Shown here piece after piece: positions 6,446 to 51,210 of a stretch of DNA of 64,000 bases (its first letter is position 1; each line of letters starts with the position of its first letter). The DNA comes from Chromera velia (taxonomy: Eukaryota > Sar > Chromeraceae). The notes under the pieces were generated by a model. The model ran no database searches. It saw only the letters and a list, made by a program, of their open reading frames with translations, and was not told the DNA's origin. The stretch lies in contig JAHBMJ010003566.1 in NCBI GenBank assembly GCA_018398765.1, forward strand, positions 25,824-89,823, written 5' to 3'. Made by a program: the position numbers and the translations under genes.

Positions 6446-9400
6446 TCATAATATTCCCTGATTCGAGGCCCCTTTTCTGCCGGCCATTTTGATGATGTTG
6501 GCCTGCTGAAGCACTTCCCTCTTCCGTCTCTCCACGTCTTTCGGGGGCTGTCCGGCCTTTCCCTTCTTCAGATTTCTCGGGAAGTCCGGTTGTTCTGGTG
6601 AGCCTGGCTCGACATGCATCACGGGAACGGGGATGGTATTGCCCTTCCATCCGGCGTTGACCTCCAGCAGCATGCGGAGATTTGCCTTCTCCTTCTCGTC
6701 TTGCATTTCTTCATGGTTCTCCATGAAACACCACTCCACATACCTCTCCTTCCCGGCAGCCGAACGCATCCACCTGCACAGGCAGCAAAAAGACAAGAAG
6801 CACCGGAAAGAAAGAAAATCAACATCGGCCACTTTAAACAAATGTGGGAGAAGAAATGTGCATGATGAATGTTGAGCCGAAGTCACGCACATGTCAAAAG
6901 ATATCTGGAGAAGAGTCGAAAAGAAGTCAACTTGCACCTCTGCTCTATATGCAAGAGGTGCAAAGAAGAAAGAGGGGGCGCCCCAAAAAACAGGCGGAAG
7001 CAGACGGAAGAAAAGAAGCAGAGGCACACTAACGAGACATTTCTCACAGGGACCCGTTTTTCCTTCCATCTCTCCTCTTCGAAGGCACATAAAAGCGGAG
7101 AGAAACAACTGAAGTCGTCTTTCAACCTTTCTACGTTGTTCTCTCCATTCTAAGAAGCCTTGTTAGCTTGGACTGAAGTTTGACTGACTGACCCTCCAAC
7201 TGCGTTCTTCAACACTTCGACCTCTTTCATACAGAACTTGTCCTCTGCAGGCAGGCAGGCAAAACGCAGGGGTCCAAACACAGAATCATATGTGCGCATA
7301 TACACACGGAGAGGGGGAGAGCGAGAGAGAGAAAGAGAGGCACGGAAAGGCGATGGGCGGGTGGGAAAGCGGGAAGGAAACTCAGGCATATCAATCAAGA
7401 AAGATACATGAACACTCCCACGCAATCCAAAAGATGCATGATCAATTCTTTGTTTGTTTTCGGGCAGTCACAAGGCTAGCTACCTCCTTTCCCCTCCCTC
7501 CACCACATTGCAGGCAAGCAGGCAGGCAGGCCGACCGACGGACCGTCAGAGAGCTCCTTCACAGGCCTTTCCAACGCAAGATTCGCAATCAGAGCCGTGG
7601 ATCTCTTCAGCGGGTCGAATTCGACCATGTTCGTCGGCTCTCCGATAGAGGTCAAGTAGTCGGTACGCAAAGTTCGTCGCAGTTCAACCAGGTCTCGGAC
7701 CTGCATGCATGGATGCATTCAGTGGGCAGAGAAGTGAGGTCAGGTGAGGTGGAGATAATCCATCACTTGTTCATTTTCATGAAGGGATTGCCTCGCAGTA
7801 AGGAAACTCAGACTTTGGCAGACTCAGGCAGAAATTGAAGACAGAAGAGATGAGCGCACGCGGGGCGGTAACAAAGACAGTTGATTAATTTCCTCAAGAT
7901 CCCAACAACCAACTGACCTCAGGGACTGCGTCAATATCCTCCGCTATTGTGTCTTGTCTCTCGTCTGTGTCCGTGATGCCCTTGAAGTAGTAGTTGATCT
8001 GGTCTTCGTGCGTCACTCCAGGCTCTTCCTTTCCCTCGTCCTCCGCTGACACGGAAGCCTTCTGAGCCTCCATCGCAGCTCGGCGGGCCTCCGTGTACTT
8101 CTCGTGGCGCTTGTCCCAGTAGTCTTGGTACCTGCACGCACCCACGCACATTCATTCGCGTTGAGCTGTCTTCTCCAAAAGGGTTTCTTCATTCGTTTGT
8201 TTGTTTGGCAAGAAATTCGATTCATTGCTTGCATACCCATCTTCAGTCGAGAGGAGGCAGGGTCTTCCCGAAAGGCGCTGAGCTGAATAGAGAAAACTCC
8301 ACTTTGTCGAAAGAAAAAGCAAACGAGGCTAGGATGAAATTGACGTACGAGAGAAAGAGAGAGGGGGAGAAGGGAAGGAGAGTGGGTACATGCAGACATG
8401 CGCACAGACACCGGCACAAAGACAGGCTTTCTGTTCCTCTCTCTCCCCTCTCTTCTTTCAGACACACACAGAAAGAAAGATAAACATGCAAGCAGACACA
8501 CAGACAAGGCGATGCTCGTGTGTGTCGTCCTTCCTTCCAGACCTACCAGATGTCCTTATGGGCCGTCGTGTTGTCGGGGAACTTCCACCAGTGGTCGAGG
8601 GTGACCTGGTCGCCCTTCTGGTGGTAGGGCATCAGCTTGGGCAGCGTCAACAGAGGGGTTCCGTTTTCGTCCACAGAGAAGATCTCGGCAGCAGACAGCG
8701 CATAGCCATGATCTCCAATGTGCCTTCCTTCGAAATCGTAGTTCATCCTGTCCTCGTCCTCCTCCGTCCACTTATACGCGTTCGCGGGGGCGTTGTACTT
8801 TTTGTCGACAATCTCCGGCACGTCCTTCCAGAGGGCCTTGAGGGCCTCTACCTGATTCGGATGGAAGATACCTTCGCCGTCGGGGTTCACTTCCTTTCTG
8901 TACTCTTCTGCGATGTCCTTTTCGGGATCCTCGTCAGTATCAGGAGGGGCCTCTCCGAGGACCTGTGCCTCAGTCTCTCTGTCGGCCTTCTGAATCTGCT
9001 CTTCCTTCCAGGCACGCAGCTCCAGTTTCTCGACAGCAGACATCTCCTTCTCACGCTCCTGGGGGTTCGACTTCCAACCCTGCATGCTCTCCATCACGAC
9101 TTGTCTGGCCTTCGCAATCTTCTTCTGCATATTCGTGTTGTGGTTCCAAAAAGTGCCGGCAGACTCGGACATCGCCCACCAATCCCTCACGTTCGCCATG
9201 TCCCTCGCGTTCTGGTCCCAGACCTTCTCCAAAACTGCCTCATGGAGACGGGGACGGCTGTTGTCCACAGGCGCAGTCTCGCCTTTGTAGATCGCGTCCG
9301 CTGTCCTCAGAAGATCTCGGACCTGCACGCAGGCAGACAGGCAGGCGGGGAGGCAGGCACGCAGACCAGAGGCGTGAAAAGAGGGGAAGATTCAGAAATT

Positions 9401-11205
9401 GCTAACGTAAGTCAAGCGTTCAGGAAGGAAAATACAGCAGCGCCGAGCCAACAGGTGTCGCGTTGAATCATGCCTTGCATCAACCAATGCATCGATGAGA
9501 GTGGACGACCGGGCGAATGCGGGCGCACACGCATGGCAGAGAAAGCGAGAGCGAGAAAAGGACGGAGATGAGGCACAACTTCAGAAATTGAGACGTGACC
9601 AAAGCCAAACTGTTCATGCCATACTTGAATTCCTTCCACCTCCATGACCATCCAGCACACACTCACGAGCCGACTGACTGACTGACCTCAGAGCGCCCTT
9701 CCGCTGTGTCCATCCCTCCGAACTTGGTCAAGAGCTCAACGGAGGCTCCGATCTCCGCCAGAGCGTTGACTCTGTCGAGATCTCCGTCCTCTGCGACCTC
9801 CTCGCGCATATGGTTCTCGAACACAATGTCCAGCTTCTTCCTTCCCGAAACGCCCGTGAACGATTCACCCCCGATACCGGAGTAGAAGCGCAACTTGCTC
9901 AACAGCTCGCGCGGTCTGCGGATTCTGCGCTCCCCTCTCAGCTTTCTCATCGCTTCGTGGACCTTCCCCATGAACTCCTCTCCGTCCATTACGGTGGGGT
10001 CCTGGGGGTCCTTGGCAACGTCGGCCTCCAACTCTTCCATCTCCCTGATGCGCCATTTGATCTTTCGACCTCCAGGCAGGTCGATGTCCTCAAACTCCCA
10101 GTCCTCGTCTGTCTCCTTGGCGTAGGGATTCGTCTCCAACTTGTTCTTCTTCTCCCAGTATCGCTTCTTCAGCATCGACTCGACAGTCGCTATCTCATCC
10201 TCTGTCGCCCCGGACTTCTTCAGGTCCTCCAGGAGCTTCTCGTGACCGAAGAGCTCTGTGAATCGGTCGGGCAACTTTCCAATGGTGTCAACGTAGTCGA
10301 GGGCCTCCTTCTGCTGCTTCAACGTGTACGCACCGAAGTCAAACACAGGGTGGTTGTCAACATGCTCGGCGTCGAAACCCTCAGGTGAGTAGTTGAGGAG
10401 CGGCTGCAACTGGGCGGCCAGGGGGAGGTGGAGGTAACCCGTGAAATTCTCATCGGCAAGCTGCTGGGCAACCTCTTTCTGAGCAGCTGCCAGCAACTCC
10501 TTTCTCTTTGTCTCGCACATGTCCGCCACCACCCCTGTGAGCTTGCCCTTCGAGAGTGGGAACATGGTCTCGAGCTGGGCCTCGATGAGGCTCTCCTTGG
10601 ACTTCAACAGAGCTGCAGCCTTCTCTGCACGCTTCCGCAACTCCATATGAGCGCCCTCTCGAGTGAGCATCTTGGCCTGCTTCTCCATCGATTTTCGCAC
10701 ATCCGGCTGGACCTCCGTCTTTGCCTTCATCTCGACCTCCTCCATCACCTTCTCAACGTTGGACAGAGAAGCGAAAGACTCGAGACCCAGCTGGTGCTTC
10801 ATCGAGTCCACGATCTGCAGCTGCCTGGAGATTTCACCGGTCACCTGAAAAGGAAAACAGGGAGACGGAAAGTGAGAAACACATGAGAGGCATAAAAAAA
10901 CCCTGAGGGAATTCGAACATCTCCGGTTCACAGTCTGTTTAGCCAACTGTCCTGCAAAAGCCAAAGAGCCGCGCGAAGTGATGGAGAGGAGACAGAGAGA
11001 CGGGACAGGAGAGCGCTGACAGACAGGGATATGTCCTTCGTCTTTCCCTCAAATGGGACTGACCCCGCAAAAACAAAAAAGGATAGAAGACAGAATAAAT
11101 CGCTTGCGTTCTTTCTTCTCCTTCCAATTCACAGTCAGACAGACAGTCGGGCAGACCGACACCCTTGCAGGTGCACAGACACACACACACACACACACAC
11201 AGAGC

Positions 11206-11243
<38 letters not shown>

Positions 11244-14200
11244 AAGACGGAGAAGTGACTGACTGACTGACCAGAGCGTCCAGTTCCTTCTTCCCGGCCG
11301 CGCCGCTCTTCACGAGTTGGATGAACTCGGCCTCCACCTCCTTCGAGATGCCGCTGCCGTTCAGGTTTTGGAGGAATTTCTCCACCTGCAAGACCGCATA
11401 GAGGCAGAAGGGACGGTAGATATAGAGATGTATGCATGCACACCCCATCACAAACTCATGAAATATCGATATATATTTGAGGACGAGACAAAGAGCAAGA
11501 CAGAGGGGAAAATGCATTGCAATACATCTATTTCCAGTCGGCAAGCATTCAAGTCCACCCGTCTGCTGATGGATGCGAAGGGCAAAAAAAAAGAAGACTG
11601 CAGGGCGCAGAGCAAAACAAAAGACGTGGACTTTCTTGCTTTCTCCATCCATCCAGCCAGACAGACTAACCATGACTTCCTGCTCGGCTTCCTTCACAAG
11701 CGACGATGCCTCCTTGCCAGACCCTCCAGGGAGCGACAGGCGGTAAGCGACGCCTCTGAGGGCGCGTGCCTTCAGCACCGTCAGCTCCTTCGCCTCCTTC
11801 TCGGTCGTACTCAGGGCCTGAGTCTGGAGGTCGTTGGTCAGATCGTCCAACACCCTCTGTGAGGCGCTGTGGTCAAGGAAGTTGACCAATCTCTCGTTAT
11901 GGACCATCTTCCCTGCCTGCACCCGTGCCTCCGACATTGCCTCTGCAAGTCGGTTGCGCTTGAAGGCGACAACGTCCTTGACCATCTTCCGACCGGCATC
12001 GACAACCGTCCTCACGGTCTGGTCGTCGAAAGCCTCCAGGTCCATGTTTGTATCACCGATCAGGGAGGCAATCAAGCTGTGCTCCTGCCCAGAGGCGTCT
12101 GCGGCCGCCTCGGAGACCTTGCTGAGATACTCAGCAGCCTTGAGTGCAGAAGTGCAATCTGCATACTTTTTCTGATCGGTGTGGCCGTAGAGGGCGTTCG
12201 AAATCAGAGTCAAGTACCGGAATGCCCTCTTTTCTGCAGGCAAGGCCTCAAACTCCTTTTGGAGCTCGTCAGCCTTCGCCTCCAGCTCCTTCCCGATGGA
12301 ACCAAGGAAGCCGAAGGTTGGATGGACCAACTCTTCCTGAGGGGCCATATCGAGATCGGACTCATCGTTCTGCTCGACGGCCACGACGTCATCTGCATCT
12401 TCGTCCACCTCGGGATCATCTGGGAGGGCATCCATTTGAGCATTCATCTCTGCCAGGTTCTCTCTGCCAATCTGTGTCTCCTCTTCCTCAATGGTCGAAG
12501 AGAGCTTCAAGGCATCGTCCAGGTAACGGGCAAAGGACTTCTTGTCCGGCTGGGAGTAGAGCTCGGTTCGCTGTTCAGGTGTGAGGTCAGAGATGACCTT
12601 CTGACCCAGAACCAATTTGGTAGCCTCGATAGCCAGACCCTTCTCAAACAGCTCTTCGACGATGGGCTCCCTTCCTCCCCTGCGCAAAAGGTCGAGAGTC
12701 TGCTTGGGGCTCTTCAGCATCGGAACGAGGGCCTTCTCCGTCTCTCTCAGGAGTTTCACACGCTCATCCTGAGGAAGTCTGCCCTGCCCGATTTTCTTCT
12801 CATGACCGGCCACCATCGTCTCTGCCATCTTCGCGCGCTTCGACCGAGAGGCCCCTGCAGGTGATACACAGGAAGGCAGGCAGGCAAAGAGGAAATGAAA
12901 GCTTACTGTCTAGTCGGGCAAAACGAAGTGGCGACCCTCCGGGTGAGAATAAAAAGAAAGGGAAAAACGAAGGAAAAACAAACGAGGCAGACATGAGCAA
13001 ACCTTGCTGGCACAGACAAGGCGCAGAAAACGCTTTCTTATCAGAGGAGACCCAGAAAGTCCTCGTGCTAAGGTCAATTTGTTGTCCAATTTCAACAGAA
13101 GCTTCTTCAAGGAAATGCGAAAGGACAGACAAGCCACCCTCACCCCACCCACCCAGTTGCAGACTGAGTGACTGACCTTGAGTAGCTTTTTCATTGAAGA
13201 GGTAAAGCGCCTTGTCGAGATCCACACCCAGAGACTCCAGGAACATCATCGACCGCAGCTGCTGTCGGGCTCCGTCGTCCATTACTGTGGCAAGCCAACG
13301 GTTGTTGATGTCGGCGACAATCATCTTGCCAGCGTCGGCCACTCTATTGGCAATGGAGGACGAGGGCATCGCGGAGGTCAACAGATCGACCATCTGTATG
13401 ATGCCCTTCTTGGAGGAGAGGGATGCCATATCGGCCTTGAAGTCCTTTAGAGCATCCTCAATCTCCTGATCAGACTTCCCTGCTTCTCTGAGCTCTGCCT
13501 CAAAGGATTCGAGCTCTTCCTGATTCTCCTCCGCCTGCTTCTGCAGTGCCCGGTCTGCCTTCTTCTTTGCATCCTGTTTTGACACAGGGATGCGGCTGGG
13601 GTCGTTGACGATGCCTCTGAGGAGGTCTTTCTCGTAGGTGCCGATGGGGAGGGCCTCAATGTCAGCCTCCACCATTGCATGGACAGGCTGGCCGTATCTG
13701 TGCACTTGCAGAGACGCCAATCCGTGGATCTCGGCACGCGCCCTCTTCTCCAGCTCGACATCCAGCGGGGTGATAGGGGAAGAAGGGTCGAGGGCTTGCT
13801 TCTCGAGTTCCTTGATGTAATCGTCCTCTGAGAGGGATTTGACAGCGCGGAGAGCCATCTCATAGCGCTTTCGACTCAAATCTGCCACCCTCTGATCGTG
13901 TTCGAGAATAGACGCGACCGTGGCTGGTTTTTCGTCCTTGCCCTCAAGAATCTGCTCGATCTTCCATCTCTCCTCCAACAACTCCTCCACAGTCTTCCGG
14001 TCTAGGCCGTGAAGCTCTCGGTCGCGCTTGTAGTGCTCGTGGAAGAATTCGGCCTTCTCCTTCTCCTCGCCTTCCAGCTTCTTCCGCAGCTCCATCGACT
14101 CAATCGAGGCCAGAGAGCCGGGGAGAGACCTGCATGCACAGACAGGAAGGAAGGTGGTTCATATTTGTTTGTTTATCTCTGGCTAGAGCTCTCCCTTCCT

Positions 14201-15729
14201 CTTTTCCGGAGCAACAGACACAGAAAGTAAGAACGAAAGGAAGAAAGAACGGCCAGCCTGTCGACAGAGAGGAAAAGAGCGCGTGAAGAAAGAAACACGA
14301 TAGGCAAACAGGCACACCGACAGAGAGATCAGCGTCGAGAAGAAAGAGCAAAAGCTGAATATGCAGAGGAAAGGTGGACACGTAGAGAGCTAGACGATCT
14401 GCTTTTCAAGACCGAAAGAAAGAAAATCAATTTATAAAGTAAGTGAGGCAGACAGCTAACAAAGTAAGTCTGAGAGAGGTCGGATACTAAAAAAAACCAA
14501 GTAGTGAACCCATACACACTTCTCTTAGCCCTCCAAGAGGAATCGCAGCCGCAACACAGCTCGCATCACCATTGTCTGCCTGCCTATTTGTTTTCCTGAC
14601 TGACTGACCATACAGAGGCGCTATCTCCCTTGAATGAAGAAGCGACGAAATTCTGGAACCTCTCGTCTCGAGCCCGAGCCTCAGCCTCGCGGTGAAGCTG
14701 CTCCTTCGTCTTCCCAGTTTTCTCAATCTGCTCAGGCGTCAGCGCATCGACAGCAGCATGGAGGGACTTGGCTGCGACGTCGAAGGCCTCACCGACAAGG
14801 GCCGCGAGATCCATCGCCTTCTCGATTCGGGCTGAGAGGATTTGCTTCTGATCGTCCTCGCTCATCCTTGCGATCGCACACTTGTGGCTCGTGTCCGAGA
14901 GGACCCCATCCATCAATTCAGAAGCCGACTGGACTGTGAGCTCGGTCCAGAGTACCTTCGTGGACTCTTTGTCGCCCTCGGCAATCGAGGCGTCGGCCTT
15001 GACCTTGGCATCCACAATCTGCTCGATCTGAGGACGGATAGAGTCGAGAAGAGCACTGCGAAGCTTCGCCTTGATCTGAGATGCCAAGCGGCTTCTGCCC
15101 TCAACCTTCCCGCAAAGTGCCGCGCGATCTTCATCGGAGGCGTTCTCGAAATCGTAGGGCAGCGCTGTGACCAGAACAGTTTCCTCGTACACCTCTCTGT
15201 CGGCCTCGCTGTAGTTTTGGGGATCCTCATCGTAGTCGAAGACGAAATTCGCCGAGTACTCACCCTGGCGTCTCGCTGTCTCTCTCTCCACATAGTCGCC
15301 CTCGGGCAGCTTTCCTTGCAACTCTGCGTAGAGCGCATCCTCCACTTCAGCCAGACCCCTCTGCTCCTTCTTACCAGCGACTTCTCTTCTGATTCGGAGC
15401 TCCGTCTCCCAATCTCCGAGATGCTCTGCTTGGACGGTGCCCTTGAGAACCTTGTCCTCGAGCTTGGCACGGAGGAACTTGTTGAACTTCTTCAGCTCAG
15501 CAGCCATCGCTTCAGCCCAGTTGAACTGAGCGACCTCATACTCCAACTTGGAGAGCCTCGAGGACGCATCGGGATATCCGTCGGGGAACTTGAGCTTGAA
15601 CATCGTGGAGGCAAAGGCAAAGCGGTAGAGATCCGCTTCCTCCTCGGTCATCCTGGCTTCGTCGGCAAGGGAGAGGTCTTCGTAGACTTCACTGAACACG
15701 CCCGTCCCTCCGGCCTTCTCGTGCTCGTT
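6446..15729 (-). other. Giant gene exons 29-38: C-terminal third
   Basis: These exons encode about residues 4610-6628. Exons 29-31 and 33 are about 1 kb each and show loosely similar helical blocks, for example DAGKMIVADINNRWLATVMDD in exon 30 (shortened here to its core DAGKMIVADINNRW) and DAGRKMVKDVVAFKRNRLAE in exon 31. Exons 34 and 36 both start with VRDL after a Glu-ending phase-0 exon. Exons 34-35 carry the aromatic cluster LDHWWKFPD followed by YQDYWDKRHEKY. The last exon ends GRKGASNQGIL and a TGA at 6448-6446. AATAAA follows 27 nt beyond the stop. Confidence 0.8.
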
Positions 15730-24700: not shown

Positions 24701-27151
24701 CGGGCTCTCCCAGAAACCGGCAGCACCCAAGTCCCTTCCGGTCTTCATCCTGAAAGCAAAACCCAAATCAAAGGGAGGTACGATGATTGGTTGAGCCAGC
24801 CAGTCATGACGGGGTATCGGGGCAAACCAATTAAGTGAACACACAAAAAAGGGAAGAGAGACGTCAGCAGAGTGCGGACGTTCTGCAACGGCGACTAGAT
24901 GGTGGACGAAGGAAAACACTCCTGCTCTTCTCTTTCTTGCAGCTGCCCAAAGAACGCGGGCGACCGGAAAGTGGTGATCAATCACAAAAGAGAAAGTTTC
25001 GCAAAGGCTCCAACGGAAATCGGAGAGGAAAAGGGAAGAAGATTTGCCAGACGCGATGCACAGAAAGTGTAAAGCACGCAGACAGCAGAAAGAGACAGTG
25101 CACAAAAAAAACATTCACTCCGAAAACCCCACGCAAGATGGAACGTATCGCTCCCTCTTATTTCATCTCTCCGTCCCACCCCTTTTGAAAACAAACACCC
25201 CTCACCCACACACTGACTCACCCATACTCCTGGATCTGTTGCAGAGACCAAGGGAGTGTCGGGGTGATCAGCTCGTACTGGTCCCTGCCGAATGTCGCCA
25301 AGTCGTATGGGTGGAAGGGGACCAGCCTCTCGACCTCATCCACGTACTGACAGACCACGTCAAGACGGTCTACAACGGCCTCGACCTCACGAATCAGAGC
25401 TGCAATGCAAGCAATGCCGCCAATCCATACATGCAACACAGTCAGCCAGCCAGTCAGGACACAGCAACGCAGGCAGGCAGGCAGGGAGGCTTTCATGAGA
25501 AGGAATAGGTCTTAGTGCAGCTCTTCTTTGAAAAAAATGGACAGAAAACCCACGCTGGAACTCACGCGCTTCGACACTTAGACAGGCAGAGAGGCAAGCA
25601 CGCAGGCAGGCAGGTACGCACACATAGAAAGAGCGATAGAAAAAGCGGTGAGCTTCCTGACTGACCGAACACTTTCGGGTGTCCCTTTGCGGCCTTTCCG
25701 TAGTGTCTGACGAGGGCGTTCCTGTAGAAGATCAGGTCCCTTCTGACGGCAGCGGGGTCGGAGTTGTCCATCAATTCGTACTGCTGCTCCTTCGACAACT
25801 CTGCAGTCATTTGGTTTGCATATGTGTCCATTGATTCATTCAATGCAGCAGCTTTTCGTAGAAGAGAAACAGCACCTGAATGGAAGAAAGGCGAACGAGA
25901 AACGCGTATTCTGCGAGTACCTCCCTCTCCCCGTTTGAACCCATCCCATTCCATCCCTTGTTTATTTGCGCCAACTGACTCTGGAAGTTCAAGTCGTAGG
26001 CGTAGAGGGGAACCAACTGCAAGGAGACGGAAAAGAAGAAAAGGAACGTGTGGATAGCAAAGGTCGGTGGATAGAAACGAGAAACGAGAGGATCTCTAAG
26101 GGGAGGGAGGTGGAAGGGAGGAAGAGAGAGGCACAGAAGACTGAGTTAAGAATGTGCCGTGCACGAAAAAAGAAATCACAGAAATCACGGGCACCGAAAG
26201 GACCCTAACGCTTTCGAAACTCTCCATCCGTCTCTCTTCTATTTTTATCTCTCCTGTTTCTGCAGCGTTGCCTATCAGTATTACTCTGTATTACAGGAGT
26301 GTTTACTGGGTACATACAAAATCAAGGAATCAATTACAAGGAATCAATCTGATGTGTTGTTTTGTACGGTTGTTTGCTTTTGCCCTTGCTTTGTCTTGTT
26401 TCTCTCCGTCCTCTAAAAAACGAGAGGGACAAAGTAAGGCAACGCAGGCAGGAGAGGAGCGGCATTCTTTCTTTCTTTCTGATCCTTTTCTCAATCGGCC
26501 TTCCCTGTTGGCATTCCGCCCCCCCCAGCAGGCAGTCAGGCAGTCAGGTCGCTTCCGCTGAACCATCACCTTCTTTCTACCAATGGGATTGAATTGAAGG
26601 GGTCGGTCAAAGAAAGTTGAATCCGCGCAGTCGCCTAGGCGACTTACCTGGCCGTATCTTCGATCGAACAGCTTCTTGAGCCTTTGGAACTTTTCCTTCC
26701 CCAAGCGAAGCTGTTGCTGGTAGTCGTTCGAAGCGTAGACGCTGCAGCAGCGAAGCCAAAGCAGAAGCAGCAGAGCACAGGAAAGGACGGAAGGTGAAGA
26801 AAGAAAAAAAAAAAAACAGAGAGAGAGGGAGGACCTTGCGTCCTTCATCATCCAAAGAAAAGGACCTCGAAGACGAAAGACGAAAACATTCGTTCACATT
26901 GTGTCAGGCCAGACCGACTGACAGGCCCACAAGAGAAAAGGCCCGTGTGAAATCGTCAACTCGAAAAGCAACATGTGCACTAAGGTAGAAACTGTGAGAC
27001 AGGGGGCGGGCTCGGACACAGAAAAGAGAGCGAGACTGCACTGTACGGGCGGGAAAGGGAAAGAAAACGAAGGATGAAAAGGAAACAGACAGACAGACAA
27101 ATTTGACGCACGCAAAGGGGATGTGTGTGTGTGTGTGTGTGTCTGTGAAAG

Positions 27152-27185
<34 letters not shown>

Positions 27186-30100: not shown

Positions 30101-30272
30101 TGGAAAAGCATATCAGAGAAGAGATACATATGCGCAGAGAGAAGGGAGGAAGGGGGCCAGACTTCCTTTTTTCTTAAAAAAGAAGACCGAGTCATTGGAG
30201 ACGAGGACGGAAGCAAAAACATACCGACATGCACACGGACAGGAACAGAGACCATCCACAAACGTACGAACA

Positions 30273-30318
<46 letters not shown>

Positions 30319-33300
30319 GAAAGAGAGAACGGAGAGAGAGAAAGACAAAAAGGGAGGAAAGAGAAACTCTGTGACCGACCTGATCTGGTACACCAGAGCG
30401 GCCTCTTCCTCTTCCGAGAGAGCATCGATCTTCGGCCTCAGTCTCTTCTTAGACACCCCCGTGACAAGCGAGAGGTAGTCCATATAATTTCCCCTCAGCT
30501 TCAGCCCTCCCCTGTTTCGCTTTTTCTCCAGTGCCTCCTCTTCCTCCGGGGTCCTTTGGGGCTTGTTGAAGTCGTCAGGGGTGACCATGGGTCCTCTCTC
30601 TCGAATCTGCTTTCAAGAACATTCAAGCAAACGAGGGAGGGAGGAGAAGGAAGGAGGGAAGCAGAAAAGTGAGCAGGAGCAACGAGAGCAGACCAGGAAC
30701 AGAGGCAAGAAAAGTACGAATTTTCGAATGCCCAATCAAACTCTGTGGCGAGTCGCATATTGGTTTATTTTTCTTTCATGCTATTCTGTCCAGGAGAGAG
30801 CTCGGATCTATGACGGAAGGAAATTGTGGAAAATGCCCTTGAACAGAAGGAAGAAAAGAAAGAAAAGTATGCGCCGGAAGCAAGAGAGGATGGTTTGGTG
30901 GACGGGCAGGGGGGGATATGCACAGGGACCGACTGATCTGTCTCAATCTGGTTCAAGAGACCACATGTGTCACTGTGTCAGTACAACACATCCCGATTGC
31001 ACAACTATGCTGTACTAGACTGGACTGAACTACACTGACTTACGTCCTGGGGGTCCTCCTCGGGTGCAGGTTCAAAGGCGTTGACCCCCTCGGGAACGAA
31101 ATTCCACACGTTCGCTTTGTCAAGCACCGCGCTCAGCTGCCCATGAAGCACAGGCTCCCACCTGCATGAGTTTTTTTTTTTGGAAGAGAGAGAGAGGGAG
31201 AGAGAGAGAGAGAGAGAGAGAGAACATCCATCCATGCATCCATCATTTATTCTCTCTTTCATCATCGGCACCGTTGATTTCTTTTCAGCTAGCCCACAAG
31301 GTGGAGGCCCCCATGCGTGCCTGGCAGGGAGGGGTCAGAGGCGAAGGGAGCAAGAGTGATCTTGAATGAGGGAAGGAAGAGAAAGGGCCTTGGAAGAGAG
31401 ACGGGAAGGAGACGGCTGGATAGATTTCCTTGCCCGCAGTGGTCTCAGAGACTTTTTCTTTTCTTTCGGATTTAACGTCTGTCAGAACGGGAAAGAAACG
31501 CAAAGTGAAAGAAAGCGGACAAGAGCGAAACACATGCGTTCTTTCCAGCCATAGCTGACTGACTGACCAGTCTTCAGGGTTGTCCTCGAGGACTCTCTGG
31601 TTCGTAAACTGATCGTCCAATTCCCGCTCCCTCTCCCGGATTCGGATGGCGAGCTCCTTCATGAGCCCGGACTTCTCCTCAGTGCCCATCTCCGGGTGGT
31701 CCATCACCCATTCCTGCATACCCCTCAGCTCAGAGAGTTGGAGACGGTCAAGCTGACGCCCTGCAACTTCCACACGCCTCTGTGACTCTTTCAGGTTTGT
31801 TGCCTGCGTGATGCGGAAATTGTGGAGGCGTAACAGCTGATTGGTTGTCATCTTCGACCGGTCCATTTTCATCAACTCCTCAATCGGAGTGGTGTCAGGC
31901 TCCCCTGTCTGCTCCTCTTTGCCCAACCCGGGAGCAAGATCCCACTTGAGCTGCCTCTCCATCTCCCCTTTGCCGAAACGAACCTCACCGGCTCTGAACG
32001 AGGGGGAATTTCGGAGATCCTCACGAATCTGCTCACGCTTCTCGTCGGACAAATCTGCACCGAGGGTCTGGACGACATCCTCGAGAATTTCCTCAGCCGA
32101 CGCCTTCTTCTTCCCTGGGGTCCAGTCCGGGAAAACTTTGGGGGCCTCGGCGTCAAACGGGAGGGTCCCTCCGGGAGCTTCAGAGCTACCGTGCAGAGTG
32201 GGGCGGGAAGCTGGGAGCATGTTCTCCACTAAATCCTCTTTCAGTCCTTCTGCTACTTCCTCTTCCTCATCTTCTTTCATCTCGACATTGTCCCCAAGCA
32301 TCCCCCCCGACCTCTCCCTGTCTTGCTTCTCCAACAACCCACTTCTCTCGTACTCGGTAGGCACCCCGTAATTCTGAATGTTAACGAATCCTCCCAGGTC
32401 TTCGCTCGGATGATCTCCCGCCGCCTCCTCGTCGTCTTCCTGTTCACTCTCATACTCCTCCTCGTTCTCTTCTACCTCTGACCCGTCTTCGTCTGCCTCC
32501 CTCTCAATCTCCTCAATCGAATCTACCATCTCCCCTAACATCTTGTCCCTCTTCTTCACAAACCCTGGAATGTCTGGAGACCCGCGATTTTTCCATTCTC
32601 GGACGAAGTCGTCATATGATTCTTCCTCATCCTCAGTGTCTGGAGATTCTCCCTCCTCCTCGTCCTCATTCCAATTCCGCAAGACACTGTTTTGATTCAT
32701 CGCCTCCGTCTGCTCCCAAGTATCTCTTCCTATCGAAGCTTCCTTGGACTCCATGTAATCTTCGTAGGCCTCGCCCTTGAGGAGTTTCTCGTATTTCTTT
32801 TTGGGCGGAACCCAGATTGTGTCGGGGTACTGCTTGTGTGCCTTCTTCATAATCTTCTGATACTCTCGTAAGTCCGGGTCCCCAAATTCCATGATGTCCT
32901 CGTTGAACCAACTCGGCTGAGACTTCTCTCCTGGCAAGTTCGTTGGAACACTTGGTTTCCTCTGATCATCCCTCGTTTCTTGCTCCTCCTCATCAGGATC
33001 CGTCGGATACTCTCTCTCGGCATTCGGGTGAGGAACCAGTTCCCCAGAGGGAAGGTGATAGAGCTTACCATCCTTCGACCAGGGCATCTCACGATAATGT
33101 TGGGGGTTCTCGTCTGGCCTACCCTCATACACGTCCATCATCGTGTCAACATCCACATCATCTTCCACTTCATCTTCATCTCCCGAAACCGCCCTGCTCT
33201 TATCACGCTTCTCCTCTATCGCGTCTGAGATCGAACTCATACCACCACCACCACCACGCTTCTCCTTTCCAGCTTCCCGACCCTTCTCGTAGAAAACCCT

Positions 33301-36299
33301 GCCTGCAGAATCCCGAATGATGTCTCCATCATTGTGAACCAGGGGCTTCGGCGGCCTCTCGCCCAACTTTTCGAGGAAAGCCCTCTCGTCCATGCTGTCA
33401 CTGCCGCCCTTCTCTTTGAGGTACCGCGCGTACCCCTGCTGGAAGTTGACGTTCGCAGCATAGCCCTCAGGTCCCGTGGGGGGCCTAAGCGTGTTGTCAT
33501 CCCCCCTGACTTCGTTGAATCCGGGGAGCTCGCGCTTCGCAACGGTGTAGTCGAGGTCACCTATTTTGGGGGACTTGCGCTTCGCAACGGGTAAACTAGG
33601 GTCTATCAAAAGGAGAATTCGTGCAATTTGACTCTGAGTCACCCCAGGCGGAAGATCTTCAAGCCGCATCTGCTGGAGATAGGTCGGGTTGGTCATCATC
33701 TTCTGAGCTTGATCCCAAGAGAAACCCATGCCCATGATACTCTCACGGACCTCTCCTGTCGTTGGCAAGCCGTCGACGTCGTTCTGAGGCTCAGAGAGAC
33801 CCGTCAAACGACCCAACCGTTCCCTCTCCTCCTCGAAATCCTCCTCGTCATCCTCATCACCCTCCCCCTCCTCCTCCGCTGAGTCCGACTCAGCCTCCAC
33901 CTCCAAATCCTCCCCGTCCTTCTTCTCCTCTTTTTCCCCCCCCGTATCCGAATCTTCCCCCTCTCCACCTGAATCCTTGTCCTCTCCAACTGCACGAAAA
34001 TCCTCCCTCCTGTCCATATCATCGGACTTCCTCAATTCCATCTCTTCCTCAAACCCCAAAATCTCATCAAGATCCCTCCAAACAGGTCCCGGCTCCTCAT
34101 CCGCCTCCTCTTCCTTCTCTTCCTCCTTTGGCTTGGGAACATCTGGAAACAACCAGCCCTGAGGGTCCATCCGACGCTTGTCACCATCGGTCATCTTGTT
34201 CGGGTCAAACCCACCCAAAATCTTCCCGCGTCGAATCGCATCCAAATAGAGCTGCGCAAGGAGCTCAGGACGGTCGCGAACTGCCTCGAAGAGATCGTAC
34301 CGATGCTCACGGAACGGGTTCATGTGCAGCTCCTTCTCGGCTTGATGGAACTTCTTCTTCAAATCCTCCAACGATGAGATGGTCTCCCGATCATCCGAGT
34401 CCTCCGCGAATTCGATCATCTCACGAAGAGCCTCGGGATCTCCCTTCATTCCCCTCTTGATCCTGTCCTTGATTCGGTCGATCTCTGGACGCATGGACTC
34501 GAGGCGGTTCTCGTGGTCCTTAACGAACTTCTCCGTCTCGGGCTTGTAGTCGGGGGCAGTTTTCTTCGCGGTGGGGTCCTTCAAGGAGTCGTAGGGGGAC
34601 CACGGCTTGTTGGTGTGGGCGGCAAGAGTGTCCTCGGCGTCCGCTGCCAACTCGTCTGCCCTGTCAATCTGTGTGCCATCATAGGGACCTGTGAGGAGGA
34701 GATGGTCGTGCCCTGTCTCCTTCGCTGCCCTTCGGAAGGCCTCGTACTTCTCCAGATCTTCTCTGGACAACTCCATCGCCTTCAGGGCCCTCTCCCTCCC
34801 AAACATCTCAATCAACTCAGTGGAAGTCAACCCTCCACTCACTGCCAGACGCTTGATCTCATGCGCATCGAATTGCGTCTTCAGTTGATCAGACTGCATC
34901 CGCATCTCCAAATCAGCCTTCCCGTGCTCCTTCGAGAACTTGTCGGGTCGGTAGATGAACCTGCGGATCATATCGGCGTCCTGCTGGATTTTCATCTTCT
35001 CCTCGTCACTCAGAGTCGCTTCATAGGCCTCTGAGTATTGGGCATCGGTCAGTGGCAACATGCCGGGAATCGACTGCCCGATGTCCTTCGCTCTCATCCG
35101 TCTCTGACTGGCATCGTGAATGAATGAATCGAGACTGCGGTGTGGTAGCAGGCCCGCGTTCATTTTCTCACGAATCTCCTCCCAGTTCATGTCGGCGAGG
35201 TTTTTCTTCAAACCCCCCTCCATCGTCAACTCGAGCATGAGGAGGTCGTTGTACATATCCTTCAGCTCCTGCTCTCTTCCGATAGCAAGATCGTGTTTGA
35301 GACTCTCCCACTCAGTTCTCAACCAATTCATCTGCCACGCCTTCTCTCCCAACTCCTTCCGGTTCCCTGCACCTCCCTGCTCATCCGCCTCATCCCATTC
35401 CTCATCGGAGGTCTTCTTCTTGAGTGCCTCCTTCTCATCCTCATCCTCTTCCTCCCCCGGTTCCTTCAACTCGTATTTTCCTGCCGCAACCTCCTCATTA
35501 TCCCTTCCACCTTCGGGATAATCCTCCTCGTCTTTCTCATCCTCATCATCTGCGTCCTTCTCCTCCTCGGCGTCTTCACTGTCCTTCTCACCTCCATCTT
35601 CATCCCCCTCTCCCTCCCCTTCTCCCTCTCCCTGAGCCTTCGGCTTCTTCGGCTTGTCCTCCTTGTCACCCTTTACTTTCGACCTCTCGATCCGAACATA
35701 ATCACGAGGCTTCTCCTTGACCGGGTCTGACTGGTACACACGGAGGTGTTCCATTTCCTCCTGGGTCGCTTTCAGCGTGCCCATACGGGAGTAGTAGGCA
35801 TCAAAAACGTCCGATGTCGTGGCGTCATCGGCGACTGTGGACCCCTGCAGGCGCTCAATCTCGGCAAGATCACCGCCGAGCAGCCGCTTGGTCTCCGCGA
35901 TGTCGTAGGCTTCGAACACGTCCACCTTCCTGTCGTCGCCCGTCGTCAGGGCCTCAGCCAGCATGGCACGACCAGCCACCTCGTGCTCATCCTCAGCCTG
36001 GCGGCGGTCGAATTCCTTGATCTTTTCCTTCTCCTTCTTGAAGTCGTCGATGGCTCTCTGCTGCAAGTCATCGGTCTGCAACCAAAGAGAGAAAGAGAGA
36101 GAGAAAGGAACAGAAGGGAGGGGAAGGAAAGTGGATGGACTACTCACTCCTGGAGTATCCCCCCACCATTTGCTACTGCTTCCCCAATGTAGGTTGATTG
36201 CATACTGCCCTCTCCTTTCCGATTCAGACAGGATTGATCAAAGAAGGTCGGCCAGAGGGGAGGCACAGAGACAGAATTCCCAAATCCGAAACGCGCGCG

Positions 36300-36336
<37 letters not shown>

Positions 36337-39300
36337 CCAAAGTTTCATCGAGGACAGTGATACCCGCAGAGAGCGCAGCAGCATCGATCGGTTGGTTGCA
36401 TGGGTGGAAGTGAGAGGAGAGGGGGGCACTTTTGAAGGGATGTTTCAGTTTCTCATCTGCTTCTTGGATTACTCGCCTCTTTTTTTCTCCCCCCCCATAT
36501 TCTTCCCATCGCTCTCTCTTTCCTTCTCCAGGCAGGGCCGTCTTTCTGCCTCTTCCCCCTCCCCCCCGTCTTTCTCTCTGACCTTCATCAGATGATGCTT
36601 CCGTCCGTTCTTCATGGCTGTCTGCCTGCCTGCCTCCCTGCCTGCCTGAAATAAAAAAATAAAGAAAAAGAAAAATGCGCGGACTGCTGGACTGACTGAC
36701 TGACTGACTGACCACTTCGAGTTCATCCAGAGTTTCGTAGAGGCCGAAATCGAGTCTCTTTCCAAACCGCCCAGGTTTAGCGTCGGAGTCTGTCACGGTG
36801 GTCTGATTGGCGAAATCGGACATGTCAATGATCTGTCCTCCACCGGCCTCCTGGGCCTCCAGAAGGGCCTTCTCCTCCCTCAGCTTATTCGCGACTGCTT
36901 GCTTGTACGAATCGGAGTCCATAATCTTGTGGTCAGACATGTGGGTCTTCCACAACTCCTCGTCCGGAATCTTGTCGGAGGTCTCGGGGTCATAACCCAA
37001 GTCGGTGGTCAATTCCTCGTCGTCTGTGAAACCCAAATCGTCATCCGTCATCCCTGTGGCCGTCGCGAGTTTTCGGGTGAAGTCCGTGTGCTTCATCGTC
37101 TTTCCCTCCCACGCGAGCTCTGTGCGGTATTCGGGACTGGAGAACATACCGTACACCTGCACGCATGCACGCACAAGTAGAGCCACATATTCATAAAATT
37201 CCAGGGAATTGCCACACACAAAGCTTTCTGAGCACACTCCTTGATCACTCTAACACCCAGATCGATCGATCGATGCGCAGCGGCAGTGAGGACACGAGAC
37301 GACTGAAGAAACCAACAGATCCACAAGAAGACAGACCCGCGTTCTCGAACGTGAAAGAAAGAGAAACAGACAGATAGACAGACAGGCAGGCAGGCAACAT
37401 CGTTCTTTCCTCCCGCAGCCAGACAGCCAGAGAGGAGCGAGAGAGCCAGCCGAAGGCGGAGAGAGGGAGAGAGGGGGGGGGAGGGGGGAGAGGGGGGGAG
37501 GTAGGGAGGGAGGGAGGGGGGGGGGGAGCGGAAGGAAGCGTGAGAGGAAAACAGCTACTGGGCACATCTACACGTCAGAAAAAAAAAACACACACCCGCA
37601 CCCACCCACAAGAGACCCAGAGACAGTCTGACCCACCTTGTGCCACTCGACCGTGTGGTCCATCGTTTCGAAGACGTCGTTCAGACTCAGACGGGCAGGA
37701 TTCCACGACTCCCAGTAGTCCTGGTCGTTTTCGGGTTTGGCCATCTCCGCATACACGGCTTCATCGTTCTCGATGATTCCGTTCTTCAACACGAGGAACC
37801 CGAACCTTTGTGCGAGGGGGTGACTCTTCGGGTCGAAGTTGCTGGGCAACTGAGCCATCTGATAAATGTTGACTCGCTCCTGCAGGCAGACAGGCAGGCA
37901 GGAAAGGACGAAGAGATGTGGGGAAAGGTAAGGGAAGCCGCCAATCCATGTAGCCACACTTCCTTTCTTCCAGTCACCCGACCCAGATGATAAGAAAGAA
38001 AGACGTCGGTCGAGTAAAGGCACAAACAAACAAACAATAACGGACAAACTGAGGGCAGGCTGACGGACTGAGTGCCTTTTTGCTTCACTGATTCATTCAA
38101 TCACTTTCTCACTAAGCGACACGCTGACTGGAGAGACACCAGGAGTCACTGTGTGCTTCTCTTTCTCTTGACAACACAGAAAGAAAAAACAAAAAGCACC
38201 AGAAAACACTGCAAGTGCCGTCACCTGTTTGTTTTACTTCTCTCTCAGAGAGAGAGAGAGGGGGGGGGGGGGGGGGGGAAGAAAAGTCACACACACACAC
38301 ACACACACACAACCAAGCCGACGGACGGACGGACATTCGGAGACAACTGTGGGAACCCGTCGTTCTCTTCCTCGTAAGCGGTCTTGATCAGGTGCTCTCT
38401 TCTTCTGGTCAATTCAGAGGCAATGATCTGCCTCTTCTCCTCCTCATCCGAAGCTTCGGCAAGGGTCTCCTGGAACTCCGCCGACTTGAGCAACGGAATG
38501 TTTCCCTTCTCCCCCCACTCCTTTTTGATATACGCGTCGGCAGCCTGCTGGACCTGCTCCATCGTCACTCTCTCCTTTTTCAGACGCGGCTCTGGTCTGT
38601 TGGGGTCCAGTCCTGCGTTCAGCAACCCTCTCTTCCTCTCCCACTCGGCCCGTTCCATCTCGAGAGCAATCTCCTCTGCGGCCTCTTCGGCGGCATATTC
38701 TTGATCGGCATCCGTCGGGGACAAGCCGGCCTTCCGATCGATCTGCTCGAGTTGATGGGGCTCTACGCGCTTTTTCTTGTGCCATCTCTCCGGATAGGGA
38801 CCGATACCCCCAAACTCCTCATCCGGCTTCTGTGTCTCCTCGAGGCGAGCCTTGGCAGTGGCTGCAACGTCAGGGAGGGTGGCAGAGGACAGGGCCTCAG
38901 ATACCCAATTGCGCGCAAATCGAGCGTCAGCCTCAGACCCCTCAGCTCGGAAGCGCCCCTCTTGCAGGGCGGTGCCTACGTCAGGGGTGAACTTGGCCTT
39001 CCCTGTCAATATGTCTGCGTCTACGTCTGTGGAAGGTGGAAGTGCGCGTTCTCTGATCCATTCGGCCTGTTTCTCTGGGGGGAGGGTCTTGTAGAATGGG
39101 TCGTTCTCCATCTGTGCAGGGAGATCAGCAACGACTCCTCGCGCACTCTTTGGATATTTCTCTTCCAACTCTCGCAACGTCTTCAGGTCACCCTCAGCAC
39201 CCTTCCCCCCTGAAGTGTTCGGGATGGCGCGGTTGAGGGCCACACCCACCAACAAGTCGGCCCTCTCGGCCTGGGCCGGGGTCCACTGGGCCTCGGGGGT

Positions 39301-41663
39301 TTGTGCGAGCGTGTCTAAAAATGCACGCGCCTCCTCTCCTTCAATCCCGCCCGCATCAAGGACAGCGTGCAGAACCGCAGCCTTTCCCCCCTCACCCTCC
39401 CACTGGGCCTTCAAGCCATCATCGAGAACAGACTGCAGACAGGCACAGAGGCAGGGAAAGAAGTGAATGAGTAAGTCAAGCTCCGTCTTCCTTTCTGTGC
39501 GCTTTACAAGGACTTCACGAATTCGGAAAATCCAAATTCAACATTCGACCAAACGAACTGATCAGATCTACCAGCGAGCACATCAGCAGTTGCAGTGAAG
39601 AGGACAGACGGAGGGCCAAATTTCAAAAAGGCACACACCCTCCTCTCCTCACAGCTCTCTCTCTCTCCCCCTCTCTTTTTCGCTCTCAACGGGGGGAGTC
39701 GGGAAGGCGATCGAAAACAAACGAAAAGAACATACGCCCTCCCCCTCATCGAACAGCTTCCCTTTTTCTGAAAAAGAGAGAGAGAGAGAGAGTATGTGTG
39801 TGTGTGTGTGTGTTCGCAATTGTTAACTTTCTCCATCCATCCGACACCCTCCCTCCCTCCCTCCCTCCCTCCCTCCTGAATGTGCAAAGGGAGGCAAACA
39901 GGTTGGCTCACAGACTTACCCCCTTCAACAGAGAAGACGCCCGTCGGTCTCGATGAGAAGAAAAAATACTAACCCCAGTTGCCCCCTCTGACGTTACAGT
40001 CTGCAGACAACCAGTTAGAAAGAGAGGCAGGCACAAGACACAAATTCGTCTTTCTTGATGCTCACAAAAAAGGGAGAGAGCAGGGCAGGAGAGGATCCCA
40101 TAAAGAGAAACAATTTCAACGGGGGGCGGTCAGAGAGAACGGTGGACAGAGACCAATGCATTGATTGTAGTTGGTGTCCGTCTGTCTGTCTGTCTGTCTG
40201 TCTGTTCACCTGAAAACGCAAAAAAGAAAAGAGGCACGCATCCTTACCAGTCTACTTCTCCCGTATGAGGATATCCTCTCTTCTCCGGACGATGCCGCCC
40301 TGCTGTCCCCCTTTTCCCTCCGTGCCCCTCCTCGTAATGACGGAAAATTCCCAATAAATCCTGAGAGGAGAGGAGGGAAGTGGCGCACAACAACACACAA
40401 GCGTTTCCGTGGAGAACAAAGACACCGAAATCCGAAATTCATCCCGCACCCATGGCAGATGACCAGCCAGCCCTTCGGAGACTTCACAGGAAGGGAAGAA
40501 AAGCCAATCAATGGAGGGTGCTTGCATCGCACGGTAGGTACATGAAGGAAGATCATGAAATGAGGCAGGCAAGACGAGGCAGGACCCAAAGAGACGCGCG
40601 CCTTCCGTAATGGCTGAAACAAACAAAGAAGAAAGAAAAAGCATGACCGTTGGAGGAGGGGGATATGGTGGAAGAGGGAGAAGCAAGGGATCAAAAGCTG
40701 CCAAACAGGAAAGCAGACACGCACGAACGAAGACAGGCAGAAAGACAGGAAGGCAGACAGGCAGGCAGACAGGCTGCATATTTCTTCTTGCAGACAGGCA
40801 GGCAGGCGGACAGACAGGCAAGAAAAGGGAGTGCGGCGAGGGGACAAACACAAAAGATAGAGGACACGAGAAGGAGGGGGGTGGAGAGGTGCGCAAAGAG
40901 AAACTGGACAGCGAAGAAAGAGACCAGACCAGGAAGGAGAGGCCGTTGAAAGAGAAGCTACGGAGAAGGCGAACGCGGTCGGTGGAGCAAGGAGACGGAG
41001 GCAGACAGAAAGTCGAACAGCAGACTGGGGGACAGACACAGAAACGTGTGCGCAACGAAAAAGGAGACGGTAGCACTTAGAGGACAACGAACAGAGGAGG
41101 GCACGCACAGAAAGGGCCGGAAGGCATGGCAGGGGAGCACGAGAAGACAAACAGATGAAGCGGAAGCACCCAAACGAAAGAAGGGGTACCCGTCATTCGT
41201 TTCCAAAGTTCGTTTATTTTCTGTCTCTTCCAATCGTGTGTCTGGCTGTCTCTCTTTCCTTTCGGATTCTATCACATCACGATCAGATCAACAACCACAA
41301 CAATGGTCCCCTTTCTTTTTCGGGCTGCACTTCCTCTCCCATTTCCCCGCTTGCTGTGTCACACAAAGCAGGGCTGTGTCTCCCCCGCATTCTGTCACCG
41401 AAGGGAACGGAGTTCAGTCGGGAGGAGACGGGAAAACGTGAAGAAAAGAAACAGCGGGCGTTTTGCTCTTGAAAAGAGGAGACAGTTCATTGCAACAGCT
41501 CTGCTGGGTAGTGGTAGACCCCAAGTATCAAGCACAACACATTTGGATGGAACACAGATGGACATACAAGAAGCTGACCTGCAAGACCATCGCCAACAAC
41601 ACCTTGCCAAGAAAGGCAGGCTGAGACTACCACGGTGCACCAAAGAGTTGACCTTCCTCCCAT
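6446..41663 (-). CDS. Giant 38-exon gene, about 6,628-residue acidic helical protein of unknown function
   Basis: I joined 38 exons whose donor and acceptor phases agree at all 37 junctions, giving 19,887 nt (6,629 codons with stop) and no internal stop. Exons, 5' to 3': 41663-41579, 40360-40248, 40000-39920, 39432-38335, 37879-37637, 37156-36713, 36075-31568, 31161-31044, 30606-30380, 29894-29750, 29370-28482, 28096-27948, 27436-27228, 26741-26648, 26017-25981, 25875-25666, 25399-25222, 24749-24137, 23655-23152, 22780-22598, 22185-19997, 19676-19416, 19028-18537, 18216-18015, 17731-17621, 17360-17250, 16932-16730, 16311-16179, 15729-14609, 14129-13177, 12854-11671, 11385-11272, 10844-9687, 9322-8547, 8131-7918, 7700-7544, 7244-7193, 6773-6446. 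The protein is rich in Glu, Asp, Lys and Arg and predicted largely helical. Apart from the N-terminal signal I see no membrane segment, and I recognise no enzyme motif. The first two exons are less certain than the rest. One gene is preferred over several because the frame never closes and no internal promoter or terminal exon is apparent. Confidence 0.75.
16179..23655 (-). other. Giant gene exons 19-28: coiled-coil-rich middle
   Basis: These exons encode about residues 3148-4610. Exon 21 (22185-19997, 2.2 kb) is the most ordered part of the protein, with amphipathic helices, conserved-looking aromatic residues and little simple sequence. Exons 19, 20 and 22-28 are shorter. Exons 25 and 26 are each exactly 111 nt with phase-0 borders. 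Exon 28 (133 nt) is open in only one frame, around KDDAEIVEWIHQQFQ, and that is the frame its neighbours require. No family is recognised; the content suggests a scaffold or assembly role, which is inference. Confidence 0.75.
24137..31161 (-). other. Giant gene exons 8-18: cluster of short exons including a 37-nt microexon
   Basis: Eleven exons encode about residues 2191-3147. Exon 11 (889 nt) ends in a Glu/Ala-rich tract and then SRFEKFKMDPINRWRFD. Exon 13 holds an aromatic-acidic stretch PDWDIGWGDFEDEIGIG. Exon 15 is only 37 nt (26017-25981, LVPLYAYDLNFQ) but fits both neighbours in phase. Exon 18 carries HYESWDEYIQRRVAENEY and the acidic segment before PFFE. Junction phases are mixed (0, 1 and 2), and matching them by eye strongly constrains the model. 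No catalytic motif is visible. Confidence 0.75.
31568..36075 (-). other. Giant gene exon 7: single 4.5-kb exon, acidic and disordered
   Basis: This one exon encodes about 1,500 residues (roughly 689-2190). It begins with a predicted coiled coil (DFKKEKEKIKEFDRRQAEDE). It then alternates helical charged blocks with nearly pure Glu/Asp/Gly tracts, near 35.4-35.7 kb, 33.8-34.0 kb and 32.2-32.7 kb. Near 33.69-33.76 kb a segment with MGMGFSWDQAQKMM resembles a ubiquitin-associated (UBA) helix-loop pattern, where a Met-Gly-Phe turn is typical. It is short and unsupported by anything else. A short Gly run lies near 33.24 kb. The exon leaves in phase 2 through a GTCAGTCAGTCAG donor. Confidence 0.75.
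36713..39432 (-). other. Giant gene exons 4-6: charged N-terminal region
   Basis: These exons cover about residues 94-688. Exon 4 (366 codons) is Glu/Ala/Lys-rich, with long predicted helices around EYAAEEAAEEIALEMERAEW. Exon 5 carries an aromatic cluster DQDYWESWNPARLSL, a type that returns in distant exons. Exon 6 contains an acidic patch around DDDLGFTDDEE and ends with YETLDELEV. All junctions are phase 0. The donors are GTCCGTCCGTCC (exon 4), GTGGGTCAG (exon 5) and a six-unit GTCAGTCA array (exon 6). I recognise no domain family. Confidence 0.75.
40248..41663 (-). other. Giant gene exons 1-2: putative bipartite plastid-targeting leader
   Basis: Exon 1 (41663-41579) starts at an ATG in an ACCATGG context. 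It encodes a short basic start (GGR) and a hydrophobic core around LWCTVVVSACLSW, a good signal peptide, ending GDGLA in phase 1. Exon 2 (40360-40248) has a strong pyrimidine tract and CAG acceptor. It restores the frame and opens with GFIGNFPSLRGGARR, then continues Ser/Arg-rich. A signal peptide followed by an early Phe and a basic stretch is the known layout of complex-plastid presequences. The 1,217-bp first intron is long for this gene, and the link is inferred from phase and signal quality alone. The alternative is an unrecognised upstream start nearer exon 3. Confidence 0.55.

Positions 41664-47649: not shown

Positions 47650-47688
<39 letters not shown>

Positions 47689-51149: not shown

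Positions 51150-51210
<61 letters not shown>

Follow-up and report, generated by a model that had tools for sequence, protein, structure and literature searches.

The 64,000-nucleotide (nt) stretch of Chromera velia DNA analysed here (the window, i.e. bases 25,824-89,823 of the 89,823-base contig C3408, in an assembly of 177.8 Mb and 4,040 contigs) very probably carries a real giant, intron-rich gene on its minus strand. Exons 3-38 of this gene (39,432-6,446, minus strand; 19,587 nt) are well supported: they are read in one open frame with a common splice grammar, a single gene is preferred to a break, and the product is acidic and nearly free of cysteine, has helical periodicity and gave no above-threshold match to a known family in the libraries searched. 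We give about an even chance to the reading that a single nuclear chromerid gene, of 36 coding exons or more, specifies one giant protein of ~6,550-6,600 residues, which would work as a non-enzymatic helical scaffold or tether.

The gene was reconstructed with a gene finder that combined a 3-periodic third-order Markov coding model and Viterbi decoding with splice-site matrices, start and stop penalties and a check for stops across junctions; it was seeded with the cores of ten long minus-strand open reading frames (ORFs) and then self-trained. Its first pass returned a single gene on the minus strand, with 42 exons totalling 19,752 nt. A preliminary description of the same DNA had proposed a single gene of 38 exons ending at 6446, with one open frame, 37 junctions in phase and a product of about 6,600 residues, and had named stops created by the true splice sites as something that would split it. 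Joining the finder's internal exons to the start and stop of that description gave a minus-strand model of 38 exons that totals 19,785 nt and codes for 6,594 residues, with 37 of 37 junctions in phase and no internal stop, i.e. the proposed architecture was recovered, the total being 102 nt less than the 19,887 nt given earlier. When retrained, the finder itself picked the stop at 6446, with a start at 42,086 and 40 exons. The coding score was positive and highest in the chosen frame for 36 of the 38 exons (7.3 to 850.6, under a scoring model trained on this gene), and was negative for both leader exons (1 and 2) in the 38-exon rebuild. Exon 6, whose 63 nt could be dropped without altering the frame, was positive in a second frame too (+12.8 versus +4.4). 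Introns have a median length of 415 nt; the internal ones measure 67-631 nt, and a length above 631 nt is seen in the two leader introns alone; an in-frame stop is present in 33 of the 37 introns, and the window sequence contains no N.

The preliminary description had also held that such a frame would be hard to obtain by chance, and cross-validation bears this out. When the finder was trained on exons 3-20 only, 17 of the 18 exons 21-38 were predicted exactly, and the reverse training gave 15 of the 18 exons 3-20 (32 of 36 over both runs). Each run predicted one gene of 21 exons, of which 4 and 6 are absent from the reference; this reference was the full-data model, and the result measures agreement and consistency. 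The two runs scored 1852 and 1608, compared with 69.1 and 51.9 for the best of 15 dinucleotide shuffles each; the opposite strand scored 115.7 and 76.7. Chance reading frames are ruled out by these shuffles and by the opposite strand.

The splice sites follow a strict rule. Internal donors have G at +5 in 35 of 35 cases, T at +6 in 33 and C at +7 in 30, and all 35 internal acceptors have C at -3, making the gene a long example of a GTCAGTC...TGCAG rule that is useful for annotating the Chromera velia genome. As an outside check, the finder trained on this gene alone put exons over both places matching PF01716 on contig C2535, where the genome carries a PsbO gene; 3 of the 5 donors of the introns predicted at this locus start with GTCAGT and 4 of the 5 acceptors end in TGCAG, the 5' part of the prediction being probably wrong. 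Within the introns of 6,446-39,432 the GTCAGTC donor sometimes extends into GTCA tetranucleotide repeats. A genome-wide count of the short-intron pattern (85, versus 35 for the reversed pattern) was contaminated by such GTCA repeats and was not used. Like the splice rule, the placement of tandem repeats is a check that depends less on codon statistics: 11 of the 12 arrays in the gene body are wholly intronic, introns making up 40.6% of the body (P = 0.0004; overlapping rows were merged by hand and three leader-region arrays excluded), with the caveat that the coding model may itself keep simple repeats out of exons.

The exons are given below in order of translation; 'all three' marks those given by the finder's first pass, the rebuild and cross-validation.

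41579..41663, minus: candidate exon 1 (start of the preliminary description), uncertain; MGGRSTLWCTVVVSACLSWQGVVGDGLA(G), signal-peptide-like; donor GTCAGCTT scores 2.0
40248..40360, minus: candidate exon 2, uncertain; (G)FIGNFPSLRGGARREKGDSRAASSGEERISSYGRSRL, transit-peptide-like; donor GTAAGGAT scores -3.9
39920..40000, minus: alternative or additional leader exon TVTSEGATGVSIFSSHRDRRASSLLKG, uncertain; in phase with exon 3; acceptor 7.7, donor 7.8; the leader scores lower with it than without
38335..39432, minus: exon 3, 366 residues, the first exon that is secure as coding sequence; coding score +193; first finder pass and cross-validation agree
37637..37879, minus: exon 4; all three
36713..37156, minus: exon 5; all three
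36583..36645, minus: exon 6, 21 residues, a weak internal exon; score +12.8; the cheapest gene break comes after it
31564..36075, minus: exon 7, 1,504 codons, no cysteine, acidic tracts; score +851; inexact in one cross-validation
31044..31136, minus: exon 8; rebuild; inexact in one cross-validation
30380..30606, minus: exon 9; all three
29750..29894, minus: exon 10; all three
28482..29370, minus: exon 11, containing the single exonic tandem-repeat array of the body; all three and repeat scan
27948..28096, minus: exon 12; all three
27228..27436, minus: exon 13, tryptophan-rich (SSWRPDWDIGW); all three and aromatic-cluster scan
26648..26741, minus: exon 14; all three
25980..26016, minus: exon 15, 37 nt; all three
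25666..25800, minus: exon 16; rebuild; inexact in one cross-validation
25222..25399, minus: exon 17; all three
24137..24749, minus: exon 18; all three
23152..23655, minus: exon 19; all three
22598..22780, minus: exon 20; all three
19997..22185, minus: exon 21, 729 whole codons; score +388; cross-validation; low-confidence all-helix single-sequence model
19416..19676, minus: exon 22; all three
18537..19028, minus: exon 23; all three
18015..18216, minus: exon 24; all three
17609..17731, minus: exon 25; all three
17250..17360, minus: exon 26; all three
16730..16932, minus: exon 27; all three
16179..16311, minus: exon 28; all three
14609..15729, minus: exon 29; all three
13177..14129, minus: exon 30; all three
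11671..12854, minus: exon 31; all three
11272..11385, minus: exon 32; all three
9687..10844, minus: exon 33; all three
8547..9322, minus: exon 34, tryptophan-rich (RDWWAMSE, HWWKFPDNTTAHKDIW); all three and aromatic-cluster scan
7918..8131, minus: exon 35; all three
7544..7700, minus: exon 36; all three
7193..7244, minus: exon 37; all three
6446..6773, minus: exon 38, including the stop codon; rebuild and retrained finder, with another end in the first pass and in one cross-validation

Upstream of exon 3 its frame offers no Met, so that a leader is required. A start at 41,663, the exact 5' end proposed in the preliminary description, reads MGGRSTLWCTVVVSACLSWQGVVGDGLAG and then FIGNFPSLRGGARREKGDSRAASSGEERISSYGRSRL, i.e. 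MGGRSTLWCTVVVSACLSWQGVVGDGLA-GF followed by a Ser/Arg/Gly-rich stretch, which looks like a signal peptide plus a transit peptide and includes the 19-residue stretch of highest hydropathy in the whole protein (1.38, the best outside the leader being 1.22 at residue 2844). We could not uphold this 5' end. The exon 2 donor scores -3.9 versus a minimum of 4.1 among internal donors, none of the 19 leaders found by strict enumeration starts at 41,663, and the leader from 41,663 scores -36.0 (-45.4 with the added exon 40,000-39,920) versus -7.5 for the first hidden Markov model (HMM) leader. That HMM leader (MCQPALLATG...) was itself rejected, its exon 4 being a GGGA tandem repeat. When the criteria were relaxed, 17 of 40 ATGs yielded 5,618 leaders that are formally possible, and several of these begin more hydrophobically; the donor at 40,248 fell below the threshold used, and a leader like that of the preliminary description is therefore absent from the set. 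The 5' leader is uncertain, the start at 41,663 appearing signal-peptide-like with weak splice sites.

If the start at 41,663 is right, the signal peptide and the Ser/Arg/Gly-rich stretch would point weakly to the endomembrane route and possibly to the complex plastid, a plastid address being possible on the strength of an unproven leader. The protein might then be a plastid-targeted giant, carried by signal and transit peptides into the complex plastid and scaffolding a plastid-specific assembly there. The hydrophobic start with its Arg/Ser/Gly-rich sequel is what such a route would call for, and the divergent neighbouring gene starts with a signal-peptide-like sequence plus Phe (MASMFFVFVAALSIFHLLVGAFVVPL, as judged by eye); however, the exon 2 donor, the strict enumeration, the low leader score and the more hydrophobic starts of the relaxed set all count against it, and we consider plastid targeting unlikely. 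Its boldest form, i.e. a chromerid-specific, near-cysteine-free protein of ~750 kDa that is imported by a bipartite leader and forms a megadalton-scale helical scaffold unlike that of any known plastid, would be a long shot.

Whether the exons belong to one gene or several was addressed through a break cost, defined as the score lost when a gene break was forced in each of the 35 internal introns. As a control, the giant gene was placed end to end with its divergent neighbour and the PsbO locus in six orders, giving six artificial true boundaries. With default penalties the break cost was 22.0-83.7 at the internal introns versus 6.4-20.8 at the true boundaries, and when starts and stops carried no penalty it was 10.0-71.7 versus 3.2-8.8, i.e. 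every internal intron was dearer to break than every control boundary under both settings. With zero penalties none of the six constructs was predicted as a single gene, yet a gene still spanned each junction. By its open frame, its in-phase junctions, its common splice grammar and the preference over a break, the locus is probably a single protein-coding gene, with a narrow margin at exon 6.

Several results pull the other way. The finder over-joins: run on the whole window it extended the gene to 61,010 (55 exons, 21,258 nt) and also built a spurious plus-strand gene of 74 exons, and at default settings it merged 4 of the 6 control constructs into one gene. The margin is narrow at the weakest intron, after exon 6 (22.0 versus 20.8 with default penalties and 10.0 versus 8.8 with zero penalties), 4 of the 37 introns have no in-frame stop, and the splice rule owes part of its strictness to self-reinforcement, since these sites also served to train the matrices. 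Two or more adjacent same-strand genes of more ordinary size could have been merged by the models, since all of the exons share a splice grammar; besides the over-joining, the lowest break costs (22.0 after exon 6, then 24.0 after exon 17) and the change from a cysteine-free stretch up to residue 2498 to a cysteine-containing one after it would fit such a division. However, a break is dearer in each of the 35 internal introns than at the six true control boundaries, whichever the penalty setting, and introns of 67-631 nt leave scant space for a promoter and a 3' end, so that we assign several genes a small probability, slightly raised in view of the over-joining.

The predicted protein is acidic, as the preliminary description had stated, with an isoelectric point of 4.8, a mass of ~748 kDa, 13.0% Glu and 8.3% Asp in the 6,583-residue version; tryptophan (1.4% in the same version) was judged ordinary. 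Cysteines number 17 in 6,594 residues; the candidate leader accounts for two, and residues 17-2498 contain none. Low-complexity 40-residue windows begin at 811-861, 1381-1401, 1861-1871, 2321 and 2551-2581. Hydrophobicity follows a helical periodicity in 22.6% of windows, compared with a mean of 14.1% and a maximum of 16.7% in 10 shuffles, and in this sense of periodicity the helical character claimed earlier stands. The recurrence of aromatic clusters, also claimed, is weak: there are 6 in 6,594 residues by our own criterion, and there was no internal BLASTP match. No clear membrane-spanning segment was seen in a 19-residue hydropathy scan, which peaked at 1.38 in the candidate leader and at 1.22 elsewhere.

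Searches for relatives covered Pfam, NCBIfam, PHROGs, PDB, prokaryotes, viral contigs and the genome itself, with part of the protein in each. None of 16 Pfam pieces (spanning exons 3-38 less exon 32 and a few edge codons, with exons 29 to 34 not joined) and none of 10 exons searched against NCBIfam matched above the curated cut-offs, 5 exons gave no PHROGs match at E 0.01, and the best PDB match of 7 pieces had E 0.23, in agreement with the earlier statement that no known family is recognisable; no catalytic domain was found in these libraries. No relative was found for exon 7 in prokaryote genomes or for exon 21 in viral contigs by scans that require short exact peptide patterns, and close prokaryotic and viral relatives are rejected for these two exons respectively. 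In the C. velia genome the exon 7 ORF and exons 21, 29 and 33 matched only the gene itself, i.e. no second copy of these four pieces was found, and a paralogous family is rejected as far as they go; the DNA query 6446-8000 had two 43-base matches elsewhere in the genome, at 88%. Sub-threshold matches (V-SNARE, E 0.0012; ALF, 0.0036; BLTP3A_B, 0.016; PDB Ino80, 0.23; and others) were not built on, because those from Pfam lie under the curated cut-offs and the matches as a whole are mutually inconsistent. Nor was the protein recognised in the parts seen of the open-licence papers that made up the literature surveyed.

The scaffold reading supposes that the protein is built of many amphipathic helices, with acidic flexible tracts interspersed in its first third. 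Such a long chain of helical segments could act as a non-enzymatic scaffold or tether that keeps several partners at set distances, with the tryptophan-rich spots perhaps serving as docking points. This role is our best guess, argued from size, composition and the absence of domains alone. The single-sequence structure model of exon 21, a check that the preliminary description had suggested, was all helix, as the scaffold reading would have it, but its confidence was low (predicted local distance difference test, 41.2; predicted template modelling score, 0.25). The change of composition along the protein counts against this reading. Relatives may exist in other eukaryotes, which makes the orphan status, and the lineage-specific origin suggested earlier, provisional.

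The proposed scaffold resembles, by analogy only, the giant helical scaffolds of the spectrin and plakin type in being very long and acidic, with helical periodicity and no catalytic domain seen; it differs from them in that their Pfam domains were not found above cut-off and BLASTP showed no internal repeat. The marks of a repeat scaffold, i.e. internal homologous repeats or a Pfam domain of such a family, were not found: BLASTP of the protein against itself gave the self match only, and the 16 Pfam pieces yielded no such domain. Against this, phmmer gave weak off-diagonal matches (best E 0.0012, for 66 pieces of <=200 residues and a one-sequence database). The protein might instead belong, in strongly diverged form, to one of the known giant families (cytoskeletal proteins like spectrin, plectin or the solenoids, or a large apical-complex protein), for which such size, acidity and helix content are typical and with which the observed periodicity agrees. 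The lack of a Pfam or NCBIfam match above cut-off, of a PDB match better than E 0.23 and of an internal BLASTP repeat speaks against this, single-sequence searches being weak for distant kin, and such a kinship seems improbable. Less probable still is a polyprotein precursor cleaved into several mature proteins: light-harvesting polyproteins occur in some algae, and the composition shifts along the chain with no single domain recognised, but no piece matches a known family above cut-off and the BLASTP self-comparison shows no repeated unit (recurring cleavage linkers were not searched for).

The earlier suggestion that the C. velia protein ranks with the largest of any alga has to be qualified because the PKZILLA synthases are larger, reportedly being much longer than its ~6,600 residues. 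The PKZILLA gigasynthases of the haptophyte Prymnesium parvum are described as multimodular polyketide synthases (PMC12300183); the likeness is that of a giant protein in a unicellular alga, whereas no polyketide synthase module was found here. Un1-Un3 of Chromera, reported (PMC5643376) as orphan photosystem I subunits with signal peptides and transmembrane domains, are likewise Chromera proteins described as lacking homologues; they differ in being photosystem I subunits with transmembrane domains, and are likened here by description rather than by sequence. A giant gene without kin is already a known kind of thing, and this one may well be in the published Chromera annotation, which has 30,478 predicted genes (PMC4501334). 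If transcripts confirm the gene, an alga related to the parasites of malaria and toxoplasmosis, but photosynthetic, would have a giant protein of no recognised kinship; a relative in apicomplexans or Vitrella would indicate a shared unexplored structure (plastid, pellicle or pseudoconoid), as opposed to an origin in Chromera alone.

The published Chromera assembly has 193.6 Mb in 5,953 scaffolds (PMC4501334). In the assembly used here, a six-frame search for cytochrome c1 (PF02167) found no match, the control matching only in Caulobacter vibrioides; C. velia is described as being without complex III, which Vitrella retains (PMC7877769). The PsbO gene and the missing cytochrome c1 match are consistent with this species. 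For alveolin (PF12314) 11 matches were listed in the genome, and this search also matched Caulobacter and is therefore not specific.

The divergent neighbour of the giant gene is a multi-exon gene at 42,637-53,100 on the plus strand, its signal-peptide-like opening lying at 42,637. It encodes a pseudouridine synthase domain (PF00849, E 1.8e-8, in a spliced piece) and repeated 'LLWALAKF'-type helices, for which there was no Pfam match and which we take to recall organellar RNA-binding proteins. Downstream of it, at 56,718-59,150 (plus strand), lies an ORF whose reverse transcriptase is of the Ty1/copia type (RVT_2, E 3.4e-29), i.e. a retrotransposon, and an ORF at 60,333-61,067 (minus strand) matches phosphoribulokinase/uridine kinase (PF00485, E 9.1e-10). 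Scanning the window for Rfam families and for tRNA genes gave no match. The AT-richer flank at 1,183-1,861 and 2,222-4,774 holds degenerate TGAG/AGTA arrays and scattered copies, frequently in inverted orientation, of a motif resembling CCACACACACAG, among them a perfect 37-nt inverted repeat (3,946-3,982/4,060-4,096). At 62,607-63,575 there are tandem arrays with periods of 19, 20, 46, 109 and 131 bases and CAGACAGCGAACGGGCAGG-like units.

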